DNA from: Dehalococcoidales bacterium
Lineage (GTDB): Bacteria > Chloroflexota > Dehalococcoidia > Dehalococcoidales > UBA1222
Direction: 5' to 3'
Assembly (NCBI GenBank): GCA_016286345.1
Contig: JAEESL010000001.1
Location: 1 to 50,218, forward strand
Length of the DNA stretch: 50,218 nucleotides
This document shows positions 7,388-14,826 of this stretch, one piece after another (the first letter of the stretch is position 1; each line of letters starts with the position of its first letter). The position numbers and the translations under genes are program-made. The notes beneath the pieces are model-generated. The model worked only from the letters and a program-made list of their open reading frames with translations, had not been told where the DNA came from and did not search any database.

Positions 7388-7692
7388 TAGAATAATCCCG
7401 GAATATTCATTCCGCCGGTAACAGACTTGAGCTGATCCGACTGAAGTTTCTGTGACTTTTCGATTGCTGAATTCAAGGTCTTGACGATGGTCTTTTCGAT
7501 GTCCTGAGGCTTGGCGTTTGCCAGATATTCAGGGTCGAGTTTGATTTCCTTAACCTTCTGAACACCGTTGATTATGACTTTGACTTCGCCTTTTCCTGAT
7601 TCGACATCAATGTCTGTTTTTTCCAGTTCCTTCTGGATCTTCTTCATTTTGCTGACCATCTCCATGGCCTGTTTCATTTGGCTGGTATCCAT
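7387..7692 (-). CDS. ybaB: YbaB/EbfC-family nucleoid-associated protein
   Basis: Small DNA-binding protein of 101 residues. It begins with the characteristic amphipathic helix (MKQAMEMVSKMKKIQKELEK), followed by strands GKGEVKVIINGVQKV and the conserved KEIKLDPEYL and SAIEKSQKLQSD segments. YbaB/EbfC dimers bind DNA with modest specificity and are almost always encoded between dnaX and recR, as here. Its ATG shares a base with the dnaX stop (7692), and its stop shares a base with the recR start, so all three are translated in a coupled chain. Confidence 0.95.
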   Translation of the reverse strand: MDTSQMKQAMEMVSKMKKIQKELEKTDIDVESGKGEVKVIINGVQKVKEIKLDPEYLANAKPQDIEKTIVKTLNSAIEKSQKLQSDQLKSVTGGMNIPGLF

Positions 7693-9395
7693 TATTTCTC
7701 CTCTTGGCGGATTATCGTACCGCCCATTTTTTGTGCTTCTTTAACTAAATAATCTTCACTCTGTGCAAGAAGACACTCAATCTTACAGGGTGAATTGAGA
7801 TAACTTGAAAACAGATCGGTTGCGATCTTTATATTGCTCTTATTCTCAAACATTTCCTTAAGAGTCGGATATTTGAAAGATAAAGTAAGAACCCCGTTTT
7901 TAAGGCTTACCGGTTCAACACCGTTGCTCCTCAGAATATTCATGGCCTGGGATCGCTTGATTGTATTTGAAACGTTTGAGAGAATACTCGTCCAGTTGGT
8001 CTTAAGACCTTCGAAAGTATATTTGTCTGCATATTCATTGACAGACTGACTTGTATTCACTGTGCTTTCTGCCGGTTTTGCTTCAGGCTTAACTTCAGCC
8101 TTTTTAGACTCAGTCTTTTCAGGAGCAGCTTCGACTGTTTTCTGGACGGGTTTTATTTCGTTTTCCACGGCCTTCTTAACCGGCTGGACAGGTTCTGAAA
8201 CAACAGGTTTGGGCTCGGCTTTGACGACGGGTTTAGACTCGGCCTTGGCAGCAGGTTTTGTGGCTGTCTTAACAGCTGTTTTCGGCTCTGCAGCAGGAGC
8301 TTCTTCCTCTGTGCATGCTTCCACAACACCCAGTTCCAATGGAAGGGTATTGTCTTCTGTCAGCTGATAATCAAGCTTTCCGAAAATATTGAGAAGTCTT
8401 ATGATCTCTCTCATGGGAAGCTTTTCAGACAGCTTAGTCAATTCTGCTATTTCGTCTGCTCCATAATCGAGAGCATTTTCACAGCCTGTCTTGATAAGCA
8501 TCATTGCTCTGAGTGTTCCAACTATGTCGGAATTCAGCTGTCTTAAATTGAAACCACTTCTCTGGGCATCTCCGACAGCCTGTATGCCGTCTCTGGCATT
8601 TCTGTCTGCAATATAACCGACGATCCTGCTTCCGTTCTTTCCGTCACTTGTTCCAAGCAGTTCTCTGACGTTTGCAATGGTTATGTCTTTTCCGTAATAG
8701 GAAATGACCTGCTGAAGAAGGTTCTCTGAATCTCTGAGACCGCCGCGTGAATAATTCGCGATTGCCCGCAGAGCATGTTCCTCAGCAGTGCATTCTTCAC
8801 TGTCGCAGATGTATTTCAGCTGTTTGACGATGGCATCACTGTTGATTCGTTTGAAATCAAAACGCTGGCATCTTGAAATGATGGTTGGGAGAAGCTTGTG
8901 TATTTCGGTCGTTGCCAGTACGAATTTTACATTGGGAGGCGGTTCTTCCAGAGTTTTAAGAAGGGCATTGGAAGCCGAATTGGAGAGCATGTGGACTTCA
9001 TCGATAATATAGACCTTGTATTTGGCAGTAGCCGGAACATAGCCTATTTTTTCGATAAGGTTTCTTATATCATCGACGCCTGTATGGCTGGCAGCATCGA
9101 TTTCGATTACATCAAGAGCATTTCCGTTGGTGATATCAATGCACATCTGACACTTATTGCAGGGCTCCCCCTTGCCTTCATTTGTCAGACAGTTGATCGC
9201 TTTGGCAAGTATACGTCCAGTGGATGTTTTGCCTGTTCCTCTGGGACCGCAGAAAAGATAAGCATGTGATAATCTGTCATTCGCGAGGGCATTGAGAAGA
9301 GTGGTGGTTACATGTTCCTGACCTACTACTTCAGCCAGTGATTGCGGACGGTACTTACGGTAAAAGACCTGTTGTTCTTTACTGCTCTCTATCAT
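7692..9395 (-). CDS. dnaX: DNA polymerase III subunit gamma/tau
   Basis: ATPase of the clamp loader that places the sliding clamp on primed DNA. I chose ATG 9395 (MIESSKEQQVFYRKYRPQ), the usual distance before YRKYRPQ; an in-frame TTG at 9446 would add 17 unconserved residues. Visible parts are the Walker A GPRGTGKTS, the zinc module (C...CNKCQMC), Walker B DEVHMLS, SRCQRFDF, and sensor 2 GGLRDSENLL. Domain III is followed by a low-complexity Ala/Lys/Pro/Glu linker (about residues 375-460), then a tau-like C-terminal domain. The full length of about 567 residues suggests a tau form; I found no A-rich slippery site that would produce gamma by frameshifting. There is no Shine-Dalgarno; a TATAAT ends six bases before the ATG, suggesting a leaderless transcript. 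Confidence 0.95.
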   Translation of the reverse strand: MIESSKEQQVFYRKYRPQSLAEVVGQEHVTTTLLNALANDRLSHAYLFCGPRGTGKTSTGRILAKAINCLTNEGKGEPCNKCQMCIDITNGNALDVIEIDAASHTGVDDIRNLIEKIGYVPATAKYKVYIIDEVHMLSNSASNALLKTLEEPPPNVKFVLATTEIHKLLPTIISRCQRFDFKRINSDAIVKQLKYICDSEECTAEEHALRAIANYSRGGLRDSENLLQQVISYYGKDITIANVRELLGTSDGKNGSRIVGYIADRNARDGIQAVGDAQRSGFNLRQLNSDIVGTLRAMMLIKTGCENALDYGADEIAELTKLSEKLPMREIIRLLNIFGKLDYQLTEDNTLPLELGVVEACTEEEAPAAEPKTAVKTATKPAAKAESKPVVKAEPKPVVSEPVQPVKKAVENEIKPVQKTVEAAPEKTESKKAEVKPEAKPAESTVNTSQSVNEYADKYTFEGLKTNWTSILSNVSNTIKRSQAMNILRSNGVEPVSLKNGVLTLSFKYPTLKEMFENKSNIKIATDLFSSYLNSPCKIECLLAQSEDYLVKEAQKMGGTIIRQEEK

Positions 9396-9401
9396 AGGAT
9401 T

Positions 9402-9407
9402 ATTATA
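9402..9407 (-). promoter_or_regulatory. Probable -10 element of the dnaX operon
   Basis: TATAAT on the minus strand ends six bases before the chosen dnaX ATG, which would place the transcription start at or next to the start codon. The best -35 match is weak (TTATTA, 18 bases upstream). Confidence 0.45.
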
Positions 9408-9575
9408 CTCTAATGGTCGTTCTTTTAATAATTCTAACTTATGCAACGGTCATGTTTAAAACCGAAAACAAGCGGTAAACAACGGACAAATTGGAATAAG
9501 CTGCATTATGAGAAGATGATCCTGAAACAGCTCACTAAATAATAAGAAAAGTAGTGAAAGAGAGAAGGAATTAAA

Positions 9576-10397
9576 ATGGATTTAGGTAAATATCTTGCCG
9601 ATGTCAGAAACAAAAAACCTCTTGTACACAATATTACAAATTATGTGACGGTAAATGATGTAGCAAATGCTCAGCTGGCTGTCGGCGCCAGCCCTCTTAT
9701 GTCGGACGAATTTCATGAAATGAAGGATATTGCGGCCCTTGCAAGTGCTGTAAATATCAATATCGGTACTCTCTGTGAACGCACGGTGGAAGCCATGAAT
9801 GCATCCGGAATGGCTGCAACAAGTCTTAAGAAACCTGTCGTATTTGATCCCGTCGGAGTAGGGGCAAGCAAATACAGATATGATGTCGTCAAATTCCTTC
9901 TTCAGCATTTTGATCCGACAGTCATCAAAGGCAATGCTTCAGAGATAAGAGTACTTGCTGCAGGTCTGAAGGATAAAGTCGGTATTGATGCCGCAGCTTC
10001 CGATGCGGTTACCAGAAATAACCTTGATAAGTTTGCAGTAATGGCAAAGGCTGTTGCCATAGACCGAAGATGTGTTGTCGTGATAACCGGTGCGATCGAT
10101 GTGGTTTCCGACGGAAAGAAAAGCTATGCCTGTTTCAACGGACATCCTGAAGTCACCCAGATAACCGGTATGGGATGTGTCCTCAGCGGTTTGATGGGAG
10201 CTTTTGTTGCAAATGCTGACAACAAGGTTGAAGCAGCACTTTCATGCGTATGCACCATGGGAATCGCAGAGGAGATCGGTTATTCCAATATGCTTCCGCA
10301 AGAAGGAAACTCTTCATACAGAAATCATATCATCGATGCTCTGTACAGAATGCTTCCCAGAGATGTTGATGAAAAAGCCAGATACGAAGAAGTTTAA
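9576..10397 (+). CDS. thiM: Hydroxyethylthiazole kinase
   Basis: Phosphorylates 4-methyl-5-(2-hydroxyethyl)thiazole with ATP in the thiamine salvage pathway. The 273-residue protein shows the ThiM pattern: PLVHNITNYVTVNDVANAQL at the N-terminus (substrate site), GASPLMSDE, the VFDPVGVGASKYR loop, KGNASEIRVLA, and the ribokinase-type anion hole/catalytic segment TGMGCVLSG with its conserved Cys. A purine-rich GAGAGAAGGA precedes the ATG. No other thiamine gene and no TPP-riboswitch sequence is visible nearby, so it appears to be a stand-alone salvage gene. It stands divergent from the dnaX operon and ends at a bidirectional terminator. Confidence 0.95.
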   Translation: MDLGKYLADVRNKKPLVHNITNYVTVNDVANAQLAVGASPLMSDEFHEMKDIAALASAVNINIGTLCERTVEAMNASGMAATSLKKPVVFDPVGVGASKYRYDVVKFLLQHFDPTVIKGNASEIRVLAAGLKDKVGIDAAASDAVTRNNLDKFAVMAKAVAIDRRCVVVITGAIDVVSDGKKSYACFNGHPEVTQITGMGCVLSGLMGAFVANADNKVEAALSCVCTMGIAEEIGYSNMLPQEGNSSYRNHIIDALYRMLPRDVDEKARYEEV

Positions 10398-10427
10398 TAC
10401 ATCAGATTAAGTTACTGTTTTCTGAAT

Positions 10428-10458
10428 AAAAAATCTGCATGATGAGTGCAGATTTTTT
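10428..10458. terminator. Bidirectional intrinsic terminator between thiM and the hydrolase gene
   Basis: Twelve-bp stem AAAAAATCTGCA (10428-10439) with TGCAGATTTTTT (10447-10458) around a seven-base loop. It has a T-run on the plus side and an A-run on the other, so it can end both convergent genes. Confidence 0.88.
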
Positions 10459-10469
10459 GTTTGGGATAT

Positions 10470-11213
10470 TTATTTCTCTTTTTGTTTTTTTATAAAGGAA
10501 TCTATCAATCCGGCCGTCTGTTCCTGCTGCTCTTCTGATGTTATAGATGACTGTCCGTCAAACAACTGGGTGCCGTAGTTTCCGAATTGGGAGTGGTTCC
10601 CTCCGGAGATGATATATTCCTCGGATTTCCCGTTAAGACGATTCTTTGACAGTATCCTGTCTTCTGAACCGTAGATGACGATCGTGTCATCGGCAGGATA
10701 GCTCTTGTATTCGAATGAACCAAGATGTATCAGTCCGGCTGTTTCTTCAATGTGATTTTCGGAGAACAGTGCAGCCGATGATCCTCCCAGTGAATGACCG
10801 GCAATGAACCACCTGTCTATTTCGGGATATGCATCCATGATCGTCTGCGCGGCATTGAAGTCCAGTACTGCGAGGTGCAGGAAAGGCTTGGAAATAAAAC
10901 ATATATATCCGAAGTCCTGAAGTTTCGACATAAGAGGAAGATAAGAAGTGCTGTCAATATTGGCGCCCGGATATAGGATGATGCCTGTCTTATCTGTCTG
11001 ACTGTCATAACCTGCAGGTGTCAGTACATACCATTTATCTGTTGATTCGAGCTTTTCATCTGAATTAAGTTCAGAGCCGTTGAGCACTGCGAGGGCAGTG
11101 CTGTCGGCTTTGTAGTGCATCCCAACAAAATAGATGATATTCAATATCAAAAGCAGGATCAGAGCTGTGAAAAATGTCAGAATGATCCTCTTTTTTGTTT
11201 TCTTTTTTGCCAT
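10470..11213 (-). CDS. Membrane-anchored alpha/beta hydrolase
   Basis: Protein of 247 residues. A positively charged start (MAKKKTKKR) and one hydrophobic helix (about 10-31) form a signal anchor, so the catalytic domain should face outwards. The alpha/beta hydrolase triad is readable: nucleophile Ser in GHSLGG (about residues 139-144), acid Asp in IVIYGSEDRIL, and His in SGGNHSQFG. The strand-turn GIILYPGANIDSTSYLP supplies the oxyanion side. The family has esterase, lipase or dienelactone-hydrolase-like members; the substrate is unknown. It follows the terminator of the CetZ-like gene and appears to be expressed separately. Confidence 0.85.
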   Translation of the reverse strand: MAKKKTKKRIILTFFTALILLLILNIIYFVGMHYKADSTALAVLNGSELNSDEKLESTDKWYVLTPAGYDSQTDKTGIILYPGANIDSTSYLPLMSKLQDFGYICFISKPFLHLAVLDFNAAQTIMDAYPEIDRWFIAGHSLGGSSAALFSENHIEETAGLIHLGSFEYKSYPADDTIVIYGSEDRILSKNRLNGKSEEYIISGGNHSQFGNYGTQLFDGQSSITSEEQQEQTAGLIDSFIKKQKEK

Positions 11214-11221
11214 ATATGCAT

Positions 11222-11256
11222 AAAAAATGCAGGAGTCTCTTCCCCTGCATTTTTTT
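11222..11256 (-). terminator. Intrinsic terminator after the CetZ-like gene
   Basis: Stem AAAAAATGCAGG (11222-11233) with CCTGCATTTTTT (11244-11255), loop of ten bases. The minus-strand transcript leaves it through a run of Ts. It lies between the tubulin-like gene and the hydrolase gene and may also act in reverse. Confidence 0.85.
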
Positions 11257-11273: not shown

Positions 11274-12443
11274 TTAAAATACTGTCGGAACGTCTCTGGC
11301 AGCATCTTCAATGTTCTGGAGTTTTTCCTGAACCTGCTGCTGTCTCATCTTCATGACAGGCATAAGCTGGGTTGATCTGGTGTAGTAATCACGTACGATA
11401 GGTATATCAGCCAGTTCACTGAGGATAACAGTGATATCCATCTGTGAATCACCGCTGGGATAATCTCCATTTCGGATAATGGCATTGGGCGCCAGATCTT
11501 TAAGCCAGTCGCCTAACTCCTTGATAAGTCCCATGTTCATTTCTTTTGCAGGGGCCGAAATCAGATACATTGCTCTGCCTGCGTCAGCGGCATCACACTG
11601 TGCAGATAATTCGGAGATTGCCTTATCCATAATCTGAATACCCTTGTGAGTTTCACCGCTCTTATCAATGAAGTTTCCTTTGTTGAAACCAAGTGACCAG
11701 CCGAGTCGTGAAGAGCTGTGACCGAGTACTGTCCAGCCTGAAAGACTCTGAATGGTATCACCGGCATCAAGAGTCTTGGAACCGACTTTCTTTGCTTTCT
11801 TTTCTTCACCGGCGCAGAGCAGGTTGTAGAAAGGTTCGACCATTGCTTCATTGATCTGATTAAGATTGTATCTGAGTGACTGTTCTTTCTGAACATATCG
11901 CTGGTTGTCTACCAGGAAAACACAGTCTGCAACAGATGATACAGACTTCAGACAGACTGCTGTGTTGTATACGGCTCTTTCTTCATTCTGTCGTTCATGT
12001 TCAAACGGAAGAATGACCATTGCATATACGGGCTTTTCGTAATATCTTTCCTTCACGGTCTTGACCATGATGGGAAGGGAACCTGAACCGGTGCCGCCGC
12101 CGGCACTTGCGATGAGCATGAATGCATCTGCTTCATAGAAGTTCTTGGTGTTTCGCATTGCATCAATTACTTTATCTGCATCTTCCTTTGCGATTTCTGC
12201 AGCAAGTTCATTGATCTTGCCTACACCATGACCGCCGGTCTTTCTGCTTCCGATCAGGATTCTGTGCTGATAGTCGGGTTTAATGTGAACAAGACCGCTG
12301 AGATCAGCAGAATCTGTGTTTACAGCAAAGACTCCCGGACAGATTTCAATGCCGCGCTGTGCACGGGCTTTTTTATTCAGTCGGGCAAATTCATCTGCGA
12401 TTCTTGAACCGCACTGCCCGAGCCCGATTATCATTAATTTCAT
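11274..12443 (-). CDS. CetZ/FtsZ-like tubulin-superfamily GTPase
   Basis: Protein of 389 residues with a tubulin/FtsZ GTPase fold. The N-terminal nucleotide loop is GLGQCGSRI (residues 7-15), the tubulin signature is SAGGGTGSG (113-121), and the T7-like catalytic loop has LDAGDTIQSL (D226, D229). Several segments match archaeal CetZ more closely than bacterial FtsZ as I recall those families: GHGVGKINELAAEIAKED, EADAFMLIASAGGGTGSG, KPVYAMVILP, and NQINEAM. There is no C-terminal FtsZ tail peptide; the protein ends in a Gln/Glu-rich helix. CetZ proteins control cell shape in haloarchaea; what a bacterial homologue does is unknown. SD GGAGG precedes the ATG. It lies 71 bases downstream of gap with its own likely promoter. 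Confidence 0.85.
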   Translation of the reverse strand: MKLMIIGLGQCGSRIADEFARLNKKARAQRGIEICPGVFAVNTDSADLSGLVHIKPDYQHRILIGSRKTGGHGVGKINELAAEIAKEDADKVIDAMRNTKNFYEADAFMLIASAGGGTGSGSLPIMVKTVKERYYEKPVYAMVILPFEHERQNEERAVYNTAVCLKSVSSVADCVFLVDNQRYVQKEQSLRYNLNQINEAMVEPFYNLLCAGEEKKAKKVGSKTLDAGDTIQSLSGWTVLGHSSSRLGWSLGFNKGNFIDKSGETHKGIQIMDKAISELSAQCDAADAGRAMYLISAPAKEMNMGLIKELGDWLKDLAPNAIIRNGDYPSGDSQMDITVILSELADIPIVRDYYTRSTQLMPVMKMRQQQVQEKLQNIEDAARDVPTVF

Positions 12444-12484
12444 GCGTTAATACCTCCAACGCTTATAAGGTAGTCTAATAGCTA

Positions 12485-12514
12485 ATTCTAACTAGTACGC
12501 TTCGTGGCTGTCAA
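12485..12514 (-). promoter_or_regulatory. Probable sigma-70-type promoter of the CetZ-like gene
   Basis: On the minus strand TTGACA (12509-12514) is separated by 18 bases from TAGAAT (12485-12490). The -35 abuts the gap stop codon, so the tubulin-like gene can be transcribed independently of gap and eno. Confidence 0.6.
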
Positions 12515-13528
12515 TTAAAACCCGAAGCTTCCTATGTAAGCAATCAGGTCTGACAGTCTGGTACTGTAACCCCATTCATTGTCATACCATGCAAGTATCT
12601 TAACCATATTGCCGCCGATGACCATCGTGCTGAGTGAATCAACAATGGATGAATAGGCATTTCCCTTGAAGTCCATGCTTACAAGAGGCTCATCACAGTA
12701 TTCAAGGTAGCCCTTGAGATAGGTCAGGGAAGCTTCCTTGAATGCTTCGTTGATCTGTTCCTTTGTTACATCACATTTCAGTTCTGCGACAAGATCGATT
12801 GCTGAAACGGTTGTTGTCGGTACCCGGAGTGAAACTCCGTGAAGTTTTCCTTCGAGTTCGGGGATCACAAGTCCTATTGCCTTTGCGGCACCTGTTGATG
12901 TGGGAATGATATTGGAACAGGCAGCTCTTGCTCTTCTTGGATCCTTGTGAGTGACATCCTGAAGTTTCTGATCGTTAGTATAGGAATGAACGGTTGTCAT
13001 CATACCTTTTACGATGCCGAATTTATCGTTGAGGACTTTACAGATAGGGGCAAGACCGTTGGTCGTACATGATGCATTTGAAATGATTTTGTCCTTGGCA
13101 GGATCATAATCCTTGTTGTTGACGCCCATGACGAATGTACCGTCGACATTTTTGCCGGGAGCGGAAATGATTACCTTTTTTGCACCTGAATTAATATGGG
13201 CTACCGCTTTTGTACCGTCAGTAAAGACTCCTGTTGATTCGATAACAACATCCACACCGTATTCTCCCCAGGGAATGTTGTTGGGGTCTTTTTCTGAAAA
13301 AGTATGGATCTTTTTTCCGTTTATTATGATTGAATCATCTGTGCTTTCAACATCGCCTTCAAATCTGCCGTATGTTGAATCCCATTTGAAAAGATGGGCG
13401 TTGGCAGGTGCGGTTGAGAGATCGTTCACAGCAACAAGTTCGATTTCATCACTGTGATATTTATACATGCATCTTGTAGTAAGTCTGCCGATTCGACCGA
13501 AACCGTTGATACCGACCCTAGTAACCAT
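12515..13528 (-). CDS. gap: Glyceraldehyde-3-phosphate dehydrogenase, type I
   Basis: Oxidises glyceraldehyde 3-phosphate to 1,3-bisphosphoglycerate with NAD in glycolysis, or runs in reverse in gluconeogenesis. The 337 residues are typical. The Rossmann start is VGINGFGRIGR; Asp in AVNDLS (about residue 36) points to NAD rather than NADP. The catalytic Cys154 sits in SNASCTTNGLAP, and the C-terminal WYDNEWGYSTR segment is conserved. Its ATG lies 23 bases after the eno stop, so the two are probably co-transcribed from pth onward. Confidence 0.97.
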   Translation of the reverse strand: MVTRVGINGFGRIGRLTTRCMYKYHSDEIELVAVNDLSTAPANAHLFKWDSTYGRFEGDVESTDDSIIINGKKIHTFSEKDPNNIPWGEYGVDVVIESTGVFTDGTKAVAHINSGAKKVIISAPGKNVDGTFVMGVNNKDYDPAKDKIISNASCTTNGLAPICKVLNDKFGIVKGMMTTVHSYTNDQKLQDVTHKDPRRARAACSNIIPTSTGAAKAIGLVIPELEGKLHGVSLRVPTTTVSAIDLVAELKCDVTKEQINEAFKEASLTYLKGYLEYCDEPLVSMDFKGNAYSSIVDSLSTMVIGGNMVKILAWYDNEWGYSTRLSDLIAYIGSFGF

Positions 13529-13551: not shown

Positions 13552-14826
13552 TTATTTAGTAAAGGCAGTTATGCCTGCATATTCCGCTTTGTCACCGAGC
13601 ATTCGTTCAATCCTCAGCAGACGGTTGTACTTTGCAGTTCGCTCACCTCTGCATGTGGCACCGGTCTTGATCTGACCTGTTCCGAATGCAACGGCAAGAT
13701 CTGCAATCGTTGTGTCTTCTGTTTCACCGCTTCTGTGTGAAATTATTGCCTTCCATCCGGCATCCCTTACCATCTTTATCGCATTGATCGTTTCGGTAAG
13801 AGTGCCGATCTGATTAAGTTTGATGAGTACTGCATTTCCGGCGTTTTCTTCGATGCCTTTCTTTATTCGTTCGGTGTTGGTTACGAATAAATCATCTCCG
13901 ACCAGCTGAATTCTGCCGCCCAGATTCTTGGTGAGCAGTTTCCATCCTGACCAGTCATCTTCAGCCATGCCGTCTTCGATGCTGATGATAGGGTATTCGA
14001 CATTAAGTCTTGTATAGTATTCAACCATCGTTGAATTGTTAAGCATAAGATTATCTTTTTTAAGTGTATAAATACCGTTTTTGAAGAATTCACTTGATGC
14101 TACATCAAGTGCAATGGCACATTGTTCTCCGACCGTGTAGTCTGCATCCTCTATTGCCTGCTTGATCATTTCACACGGTTCTCTGTTGTCATCAACAGCA
14201 GGTGAAAAACCGCCTTCGTCACCGACATTGGTCGAATATTTTGAATTTGTAAGCAGTGTTTTAAGCCACTGATAAACTTCGGCTCCCATACGCAGTGCAT
14301 CACGATATGTCGGAGCACCGACGGGAACTATCATATATTCCTGAAAATCAGTTGCATCGGCTGCATGTTTGCCGCCGTTGATGATGTTCATCATGGGAAC
14401 CGGCAATATATGTGCATCGGGATTCAGATAGGCAAAGAGCTCCTTCTTTGCTGAATTTGCTGCGGCGTGGACCGCTGCAAGTGATACGCCGAGAATGGCA
14501 TTTGCACCGAGCTTTTCCTTGTTCGGAGTGCCGTCGAGATCGATCATTTTCCTGTCGATCGCTTCCTGATCCTCGATGTTCATTTTTTCAAGTTCAGGTG
14601 CAATTATGTTTTCAATATTGTGAATTGCATTGCGTACACCTTTGCCGCGGAATCTCTCCTTATCTCCGTCTCTCAGCTCAAGTGCTTCATGAGATCCGGT
14701 GGAAGCACCTGAAGGAACTGCAGCTGAACCTGTGACTCCGTTGCTCAGTTCCACTGTGACTTCGATTGTGGGATTTCCTCTTGAATCAAGTATTTCCAAT
14801 GCATCTATATTACTGATTTGTTCCAT
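13552..14826 (-). CDS. eno: Enolase
   Basis: Interconverts 2-phosphoglycerate and phosphoenolpyruvate. The 424 residues cover the full protein: [14 protein letters not shown] at the N-terminus, [17 protein letters not shown] flexible loop, the metal/acid region [10 protein letters not shown], Asp in ALDVASSEF and [11 protein letters not shown], catalytic Lys in [12 protein letters not shown], and [17 protein letters not shown]. The start overlaps the end of the upstream LOG-like gene by 17 bases. Gene order pth, LOG-like, eno, gap on one strand suggests a housekeeping operon. Confidence 0.97.

Follow-up and report, generated by a model that had tools for sequence, protein, structure and literature searches.

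In Haloferax, cell shape is under the control of the tubulin homologue CetZ1. CetZ1 and CetZ2 of Haloferax volcanii (PDB 4b46, 4b45) are the closest described relatives of the protein considered here, and bacterial FtsZ belongs to the same superfamily. In papers from 2023-2024, CetZ has been called archaea-specific (PMC9856176, PMC11621097). CetZ-like proteins of the Dehalococcoidia were mentioned by Santana-Molina et al. (2023) in one sentence, as being sparse and paraphyletic (PMC9871819).

The gene studied here, cetZL_A, lies in a window of 50,218 nucleotides (the whole stretch of DNA that was analysed) from a metagenome-assembled genome of the Dehalococcoidales (Chloroflexota), a 1.46-Mb draft that is 91% complete. 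We conclude with high confidence that its product is a CetZ-type tubulin homologue, i.e. a CetZ-like GTPase and not an FtsZ. The "Chloroflexota-Dehalococcoidia" sequences of Santana-Molina et al. (2023) are likewise CetZ-like, come from Dehalococcoidia and match the CetZ C-terminal HMM; almost certainly they belong to the same family. Compared to that study, we find an order-wide family comprising the paralogues A and B as well as further ones, with a fixed locus, promoter and tail and a link to wall loss. The family had been regarded as little studied. This holds in so far as we found no experimental work on the CetZ-like family of the Dehalococcoidia in the literature, but the sentence in PMC9871819 shows that it had already been noticed. 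Furthermore, we found no published account of its order-wide spread, fixed locus, conserved promoter, hosts lacking MurG and MreB, or DIPSLL-type tail.

The gene and its chromosomal locus

According to the original prediction, a CetZ-like gene follows gap and eno and has its own promoter. The gene as such was borne out, with the correction that it is encoded on the minus strand, where an open reading frame of 389 amino acids exactly fills positions 11274-12443 as a single complete gene; the plus strand of this segment is stop-rich and non-coding. The following elements were annotated:

11274-12443, minus strand: cetZL_A, CetZ-like tubulin-superfamily GTPase, 389 amino acids (Pfam, PDB match, AlphaFold2 fold)
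12453-12457, minus strand: ribosome-binding site GGAGG, 9 nt 5' of the ATG (direct reading)
12485-12514, minus strand: promoter of the sigma-70 type, TTGACA-N18-TAGAAT, between gap and cetZL_A (11 of 12 positions matching)
11222-11255, minus strand: intrinsic terminator 3' of cetZL_A (14-pair hairpin, -18.4 kcal/mol, 3' arm ending in a T-run)
12515-13528, minus strand: gap, conserved upstream neighbour (NCBIfam GAPDH-I above cut-off)
13552-14826, minus strand: eno, conserved neighbour (open reading frame)
7692-9446, minus strand: dnaX, usual downstream neighbour (gene-neighbour count)

As had been claimed, gap and eno are situated directly upstream on the same strand, and the promoter is found inside the 71-bp spacer between gap and cetZL_A. 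Across the order, 44 of 49 equivalent spacers, the window's own included, match the promoter at 10 or 11 of 12 positions, among them spacers of genomes that we take to be Dehalococcoides and Dehalogenimonas. Since cetZL_A has its own promoter and terminator, it is probably transcribed as a separate unit, with the glycolysis genes in all likelihood being mere neighbours. A functional tie to glycolysis was considered and rejected: the gap neighbourhood is conserved, yet the gene with its own signals shares only its position with it.

The order-wide arrangement reads pth, LOG, eno, (HGD-D), gap, cetZL_A, dnaX, ybaB, recR. Among 79 named loci, gap is located near the cetZ-like gene in 52 and dnaX in 56, and eno belongs to the same cluster in 37. 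The gene is not found beside ftsA-ftsZ or rsmH. In most relatives cetZL_A and dnaX are adjacent, unlike in the window, where two inserted genes separate them at 9576-11213: thiM on the plus strand (273 amino acids) and, on the minus strand, a gene for an alpha/beta hydrolase of 247 amino acids.

One genome with the same locus order (G106) is presumably that of Dehalococcoides mccartyi, and from gene order and this identity we infer that DET0589 is probably the direct orthologue of cetZL_A in a cultured species. A transcript network lists DET0589 under the name FtsZ, cell division protein (PMC5102406); no functional work on it was found in the literature.

Relationship to CetZ, FtsZ and other tubulins

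Two Pfam profiles match cetZL_A far beyond chance, the Tubulin GTPase domain (6.6e-34; 118.3 bits, cut-off 33) and CetZ_C (PF21011; 1.1e-13; 51.4 bits, cut-off 21.6). The FtsZ equivalog TIGR00065 reaches 61.9 bits, in the N-terminal part only, and thus stays below its cut-off of 295.2; there was no match of the FtsZ C-terminal domain to cetZL_A, and Tubulin_2 (PF13809, covering FtsZl1/FtsZl2) also remained below threshold (22.2 bits, cut-off 27). In the PDB search, HvCetZ1 was the top full-length match (1.3e-44), followed by HvCetZ2. Matches to FtsZ and tubulin, listed below the CetZ entries, extend over the GTPase domain only, which is also true for BtubA/B and eukaryotic tubulin. In alignments, the identity amounts to 30% with HvCetZ1 and 17-20% with FtsZ of bacteria and haloarchaea. 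A search with PADLOC returned no match that would indicate a role in defence.

The sequence motifs quoted in the original prediction are all present, namely GGGTGSG (residues 115-121), GHGVGKINELAAEIAKED (from residue 71) and LDAGDT (residues 225-230). The T loops are as follows:

12405-12425, minus strand: T1 loop GLGQCGS, of the CetZ/tubulin type GQxG, FtsZ having GGxG (alignment with CetZ and FtsZ)
12219-12233, minus strand: T3 loop GHGVG in the CetZ form, FtsZ having GLGAG (alignment)
12081-12101, minus strand: T4 GTP-binding loop GGGTGSG (motif reading and alignment)
11754-11771, minus strand: T7 loop LDAGDT with the acidic residue D229 (aligned with E218 of HvCetZ1)

Residue D229 is invariant in the family (59/59). 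An AlphaFold2 model built from 59 family sequences has a mean pLDDT of 89, and in Foldseek and VIA-align comparisons the top-ranking structures were HvCetZ1 and HvCetZ2 (Z 45.0, rmsd 1.7), followed by Methanosaeta CetZ (3zid, Z 38.4), FtsZ (Z at most 35.8), OdinTubulin and other tubulins including BtubA/B and eukaryotic tubulin (Z 33-34) and TubZ (Z 33.0). Hence, the assumption that the protein is closer to CetZ than to FtsZ is in agreement with profile, pairwise identity and predicted fold alike, and by these measures no other family comes closer to it than CetZ.

The phylogeny leads to the same placement. The trees were calculated with FtsZ and CetZ rows, the archaeal sampling consisting of haloarchaeal plasmids and PDB entries, while TubZ and tubulin rows were left out. 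In a maximum-likelihood tree of 67 rows, the CetZ-like proteins of bacteria group with archaeal CetZ, far from FtsZ, and the split from FtsZ has a support of 100/100; a clade of CetZ-like proteins and bacterial FtsZ was rejected by the AU test (p 1.4e-9). The gene does not fall inside bacterial FtsZ, and FtsZ identity was rejected on the basis of the AU test and the TIGR00065 cut-off. Haloarchaeal CetZ and the archaeal-type Dehalococcoidia copies form a clade (98/100) next to which, but outside of which, the proteins are placed; they are therefore called CetZ-like and not canonical CetZ. Monophyly of all bacterial CetZ-like proteins is supported in the 67-row tree (94/97). It was not recovered in a 52-row tree, in which the DehC paralogues shift in the direction of the long branch of FtsZ, but neither was it rejected when tested (p 0.35).

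With CetZ1 and CetZ2 of Haloferax volcanii, cetZL_A shares full-length homology, the CetZ_C domain, the T1, T3 and T4 loops, an acidic T7 residue, the fold and the nearest clade. It differs in its bacterial host, its position outside the haloarchaeal CetZ clade, its gene context and its end, which is DIPSLL in the family and ELDxLF or a near variant in several haloarchaeal CetZ proteins. Bacterial FtsZ has in common with it the superfamily, the GTPase domain and a short terminal peptide, [D/E]-[I/V]-P-S-[L/F], and is distinguished from it by the low identity, the disordered linker, the adjacency to ftsA or rsmH and a separate clade.

A few other Dehalococcoidia contain far more archaeal-like CetZ copies with CetZ_C scores of 94-138 bits and no DIPSLL tail (loci L035, L148, L149, L150, L151, L152 and L153 in genomes G187, G510, G518, G465, G534, G456 and G486). 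FtsA was not detectable in three genomes (family f136) among those with such copies. Either transfer or bin contamination could account for them.

The C-terminal peptide

At its end, cetZL_A carries a short peptide:

11277-11297, minus strand: C-terminal peptide RDVPTVF, resembling the FtsZ C-terminal peptide (family consensus KDIPSLL)

The original prediction had denied the protein an FtsZ tail. This is correct for the long disordered linker, which is replaced by a 35-residue C-terminal helix (residues 348-382 in the AlphaFold2 model), but not for the FtsZ-like terminal peptide. Among 142 distinct CetZ-like proteins, 132 have the pattern [DEGN]-[ILV]-P-[ST]-[LFVIMY] within their last 12 residues (0.09 for shuffled tails), usually as KDIPSLL at the extreme end, and FtsZ of the same order mostly shows [DE]-[IV]-P-S-F-[LM]. 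P386 is invariant (59/59), and conservation is far higher in the final seven residues (3.5 bits) than in the preceding helix (2.3 bits). The peptide is missing from a few members, the divergent L057-L059 as well as L154 and L155.

In FtsZ, the peptide serves as landing site for FtsA, SepF, ZipA and others, and in Thermotoga an Arg residue after the core is part of a salt bridge with FtsA (PMC3418248). FtsA was found in 63 of 66 Dehalococcoidia genomes tested, and SepF in none of the 66 above cut-off. Because SepF is absent, FtsA is the likeliest candidate receptor of the cetZL tail, as far as the sequences suggest. However, the family peptide lacks the Arg after the core that is present in Thermotoga FtsZ, so the tail may bind something other than FtsA.

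Further tubulin homologues of the host

A standard ftsA-ftsZ pair is present on another contig of the same genome (C20), its FtsZ carrying the classical peptide ELDIPSFLRTQ; the genome had been proposed to be checked for such a gene, and cetZL_A is thus not its sole FtsZ homologue. Two FtsZ-type genes are common among the relatives. A second ftsA is located beside rsmH and is truncated by the contig end (L175, contig C1, 1-1195). Because many relatives have two genes and the ftsA by rsmH is cut there, the assembly probably lacks a second ftsZ.

The genome also encodes a second CetZ-like paralogue, B, on contig C92. In the families examined, B is arranged tail-to-tail with a gene for a soluble coiled-coil protein of 445-900 amino acids, which has a 25-residue periodicity, no membrane segment and only a weak Phasin_2 match; 23 of 28 copies end near a conserved RLEFLARMY-type motif. 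The gene was seen next to B across the order, on contig C92 of the window's own genome (L172, 1986-3761), in L171 (5733-7070), in L174 (4377-7079) and at approximately 25 named loci. A frequent order in the families is gap, B, two opposite-strand coiled-coil genes, A, dnaX. In the window's own genome, B and its coiled-coil neighbour are on a different contig from cetZL_A. A second, shorter coiled-coil gene (151-194 amino acids) is often found between A and B.

Distribution and loss of the cell wall

The scan of GTDB contigs for named relatives gave 302 matches, of which the best 80 are nearly all titled Dehalococcoidia or Chloroflexi. The named relatives among them are MAGs of the Dehalococcoidales and of further Dehalococcoidia, with 87% identity for the closest one (L064). 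Over the phylum, CetZ_C was detected in 26 of 400 sampled genomes, all within the Dehalococcoidia, and in 39 of 157 genomes of this class. Three MAGs titled Deltaproteobacteria (L089, L097, L098) also contain members of the family. On L089 and L098 the gene order is that of the Dehalococcoidales, and for this reason the titles of the three are probably wrong. The Dehalogenimonas-like genomes G240, G097 and G317 harbour divergent copies (L057, L058 and L059) without tail peptide and with T4 altered to GGTAAG; no other CetZ_C copy was found in these genomes, and degeneration or a change of function is possible.

Wall and division genes were tested in 66 Dehalococcoidia genomes, 37 CetZ_C-positive and 29 negative. 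Neither MurG nor full-length MreB was detected in any of the 37 positive genomes, and both are present in 14 of the 29 negative ones. In the positive genomes, the MreB model gave weak matches of about 40-68 bits, most of which were partial and fell on proteins of FtsA or DnaK size. The Fisher value of 1e-6 for this contrast is overstated, as the genomes are related and do not represent independent events. Loss of the wall genes has been placed in the common ancestor of Dehalococcoidales and SAR202, both of which lack dcw genes, and no peptidoglycan was seen in D. mccartyi, which has an S-layer-like envelope (PMC10608941). Wall loss perhaps occurred once, and the contrast in MurG and MreB may then go back to very few events. 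Moreover, some wall-less lineages of the Dehalococcoidia have no CetZ-like gene.

Possible function

We consider it fairly probable that cetZL_A forms a GTP-driven filament of the CetZ branch, docked on FtsA, that serves shape and/or division of wall-less cells beside a normal FtsZ. GTP would be bound between the subunits and hydrolysed with the help of D229, the acidic T7 residue contributed by the adjacent subunit, and protofilaments would form. The DIPSLL-type peptide, presented at the end of helix 348-382 and not on a disordered linker, would dock on membrane FtsA in a similar way to the FtsZ tail, and the filament, thereby anchored at the membrane, would act as a scaffold in shaping and/or dividing cells that have no wall. 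The parts of this model differ in strength. Formation of filaments is very probable, whereas for docking at the membrane through the tail, deduced from the peptide, we see about an even chance. Shape and division appear about equally likely as the role.

The tail and the near-universal FtsA would also fit a protein that acts mainly as a second division tubulin, joining the FtsZ ring through an FtsA-binding peptide and constricting the wall-less cell with no role in shape, for which the division of labour between FtsZ1 and FtsZ2 in archaea is the model. Such a task could be expected in hosts that are unable to use septal wall growth, but sequence and fold are CetZ-like and not FtsZ-like, and cetZL_A is located apart from ftsA-ftsZ and rsmH, so we regard this restriction to division as possible but rather unlikely. 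A similarly doubtful place is assigned to the opposite restriction, i.e. mainly a scaffold for shape or surface of the CetZ1 type, in which the tail binds a coiled-coil partner and not FtsA. It would be consistent with the function of CetZ1 in Haloferax, with the tail-to-tail arrangement of B and the coiled-coil gene and with the joint cluster of A, B and two coiled-coil genes in many families; however, where A and B are separated, as here, the coiled-coil gene stays with B, and the peptide corresponds to the tail that FtsZ carries in these organisms. Even more tentative, and in our opinion unlikely, is the wider proposal that a CetZ cytoskeleton made of A, B and coiled-coil partners with 25-residue repeats replaced MreB and peptidoglycan in the wall-less Dehalococcoidia, anchored at the membrane through docking of the FtsZ-mimicking tail on FtsA.

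Two alternatives question the CetZ relationship itself. A diverged bacterial FtsZ paralogue with a CetZ likeness by convergence could be suspected from the FtsZ-like tail and from the long branch between CetZ-type and FtsZ, which makes attraction possible, but given the AU test, the CetZ_C match and the low TIGR00065 score it is very improbable. Lastly, a TubZ-type filament for DNA segregation or a phage or plasmid remnant, to which the distant structural match to TubZ and a PhuZ PHROG (0.0046) might point, is hardly credible for a chromosomal locus between gap and dnaX that is conserved across the order, all the more as phages gave no match and the plasmid matches were haloarchaeal CetZ only; a phage or plasmid origin was rejected for the same reasons.

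An order-wide bacterial branch of CetZ would allow a CetZ-type filament to be investigated alongside bacterial FtsA-FtsZ and without peptidoglycan. By inference, the branch is carried under the name "FtsZ" by Dehalococcoides mccartyi, a cultured organism of bioremediation. Two open questions would become testable, the job of CetZ filaments and the way in which bacteria without wall or MreB achieve their shape and division.
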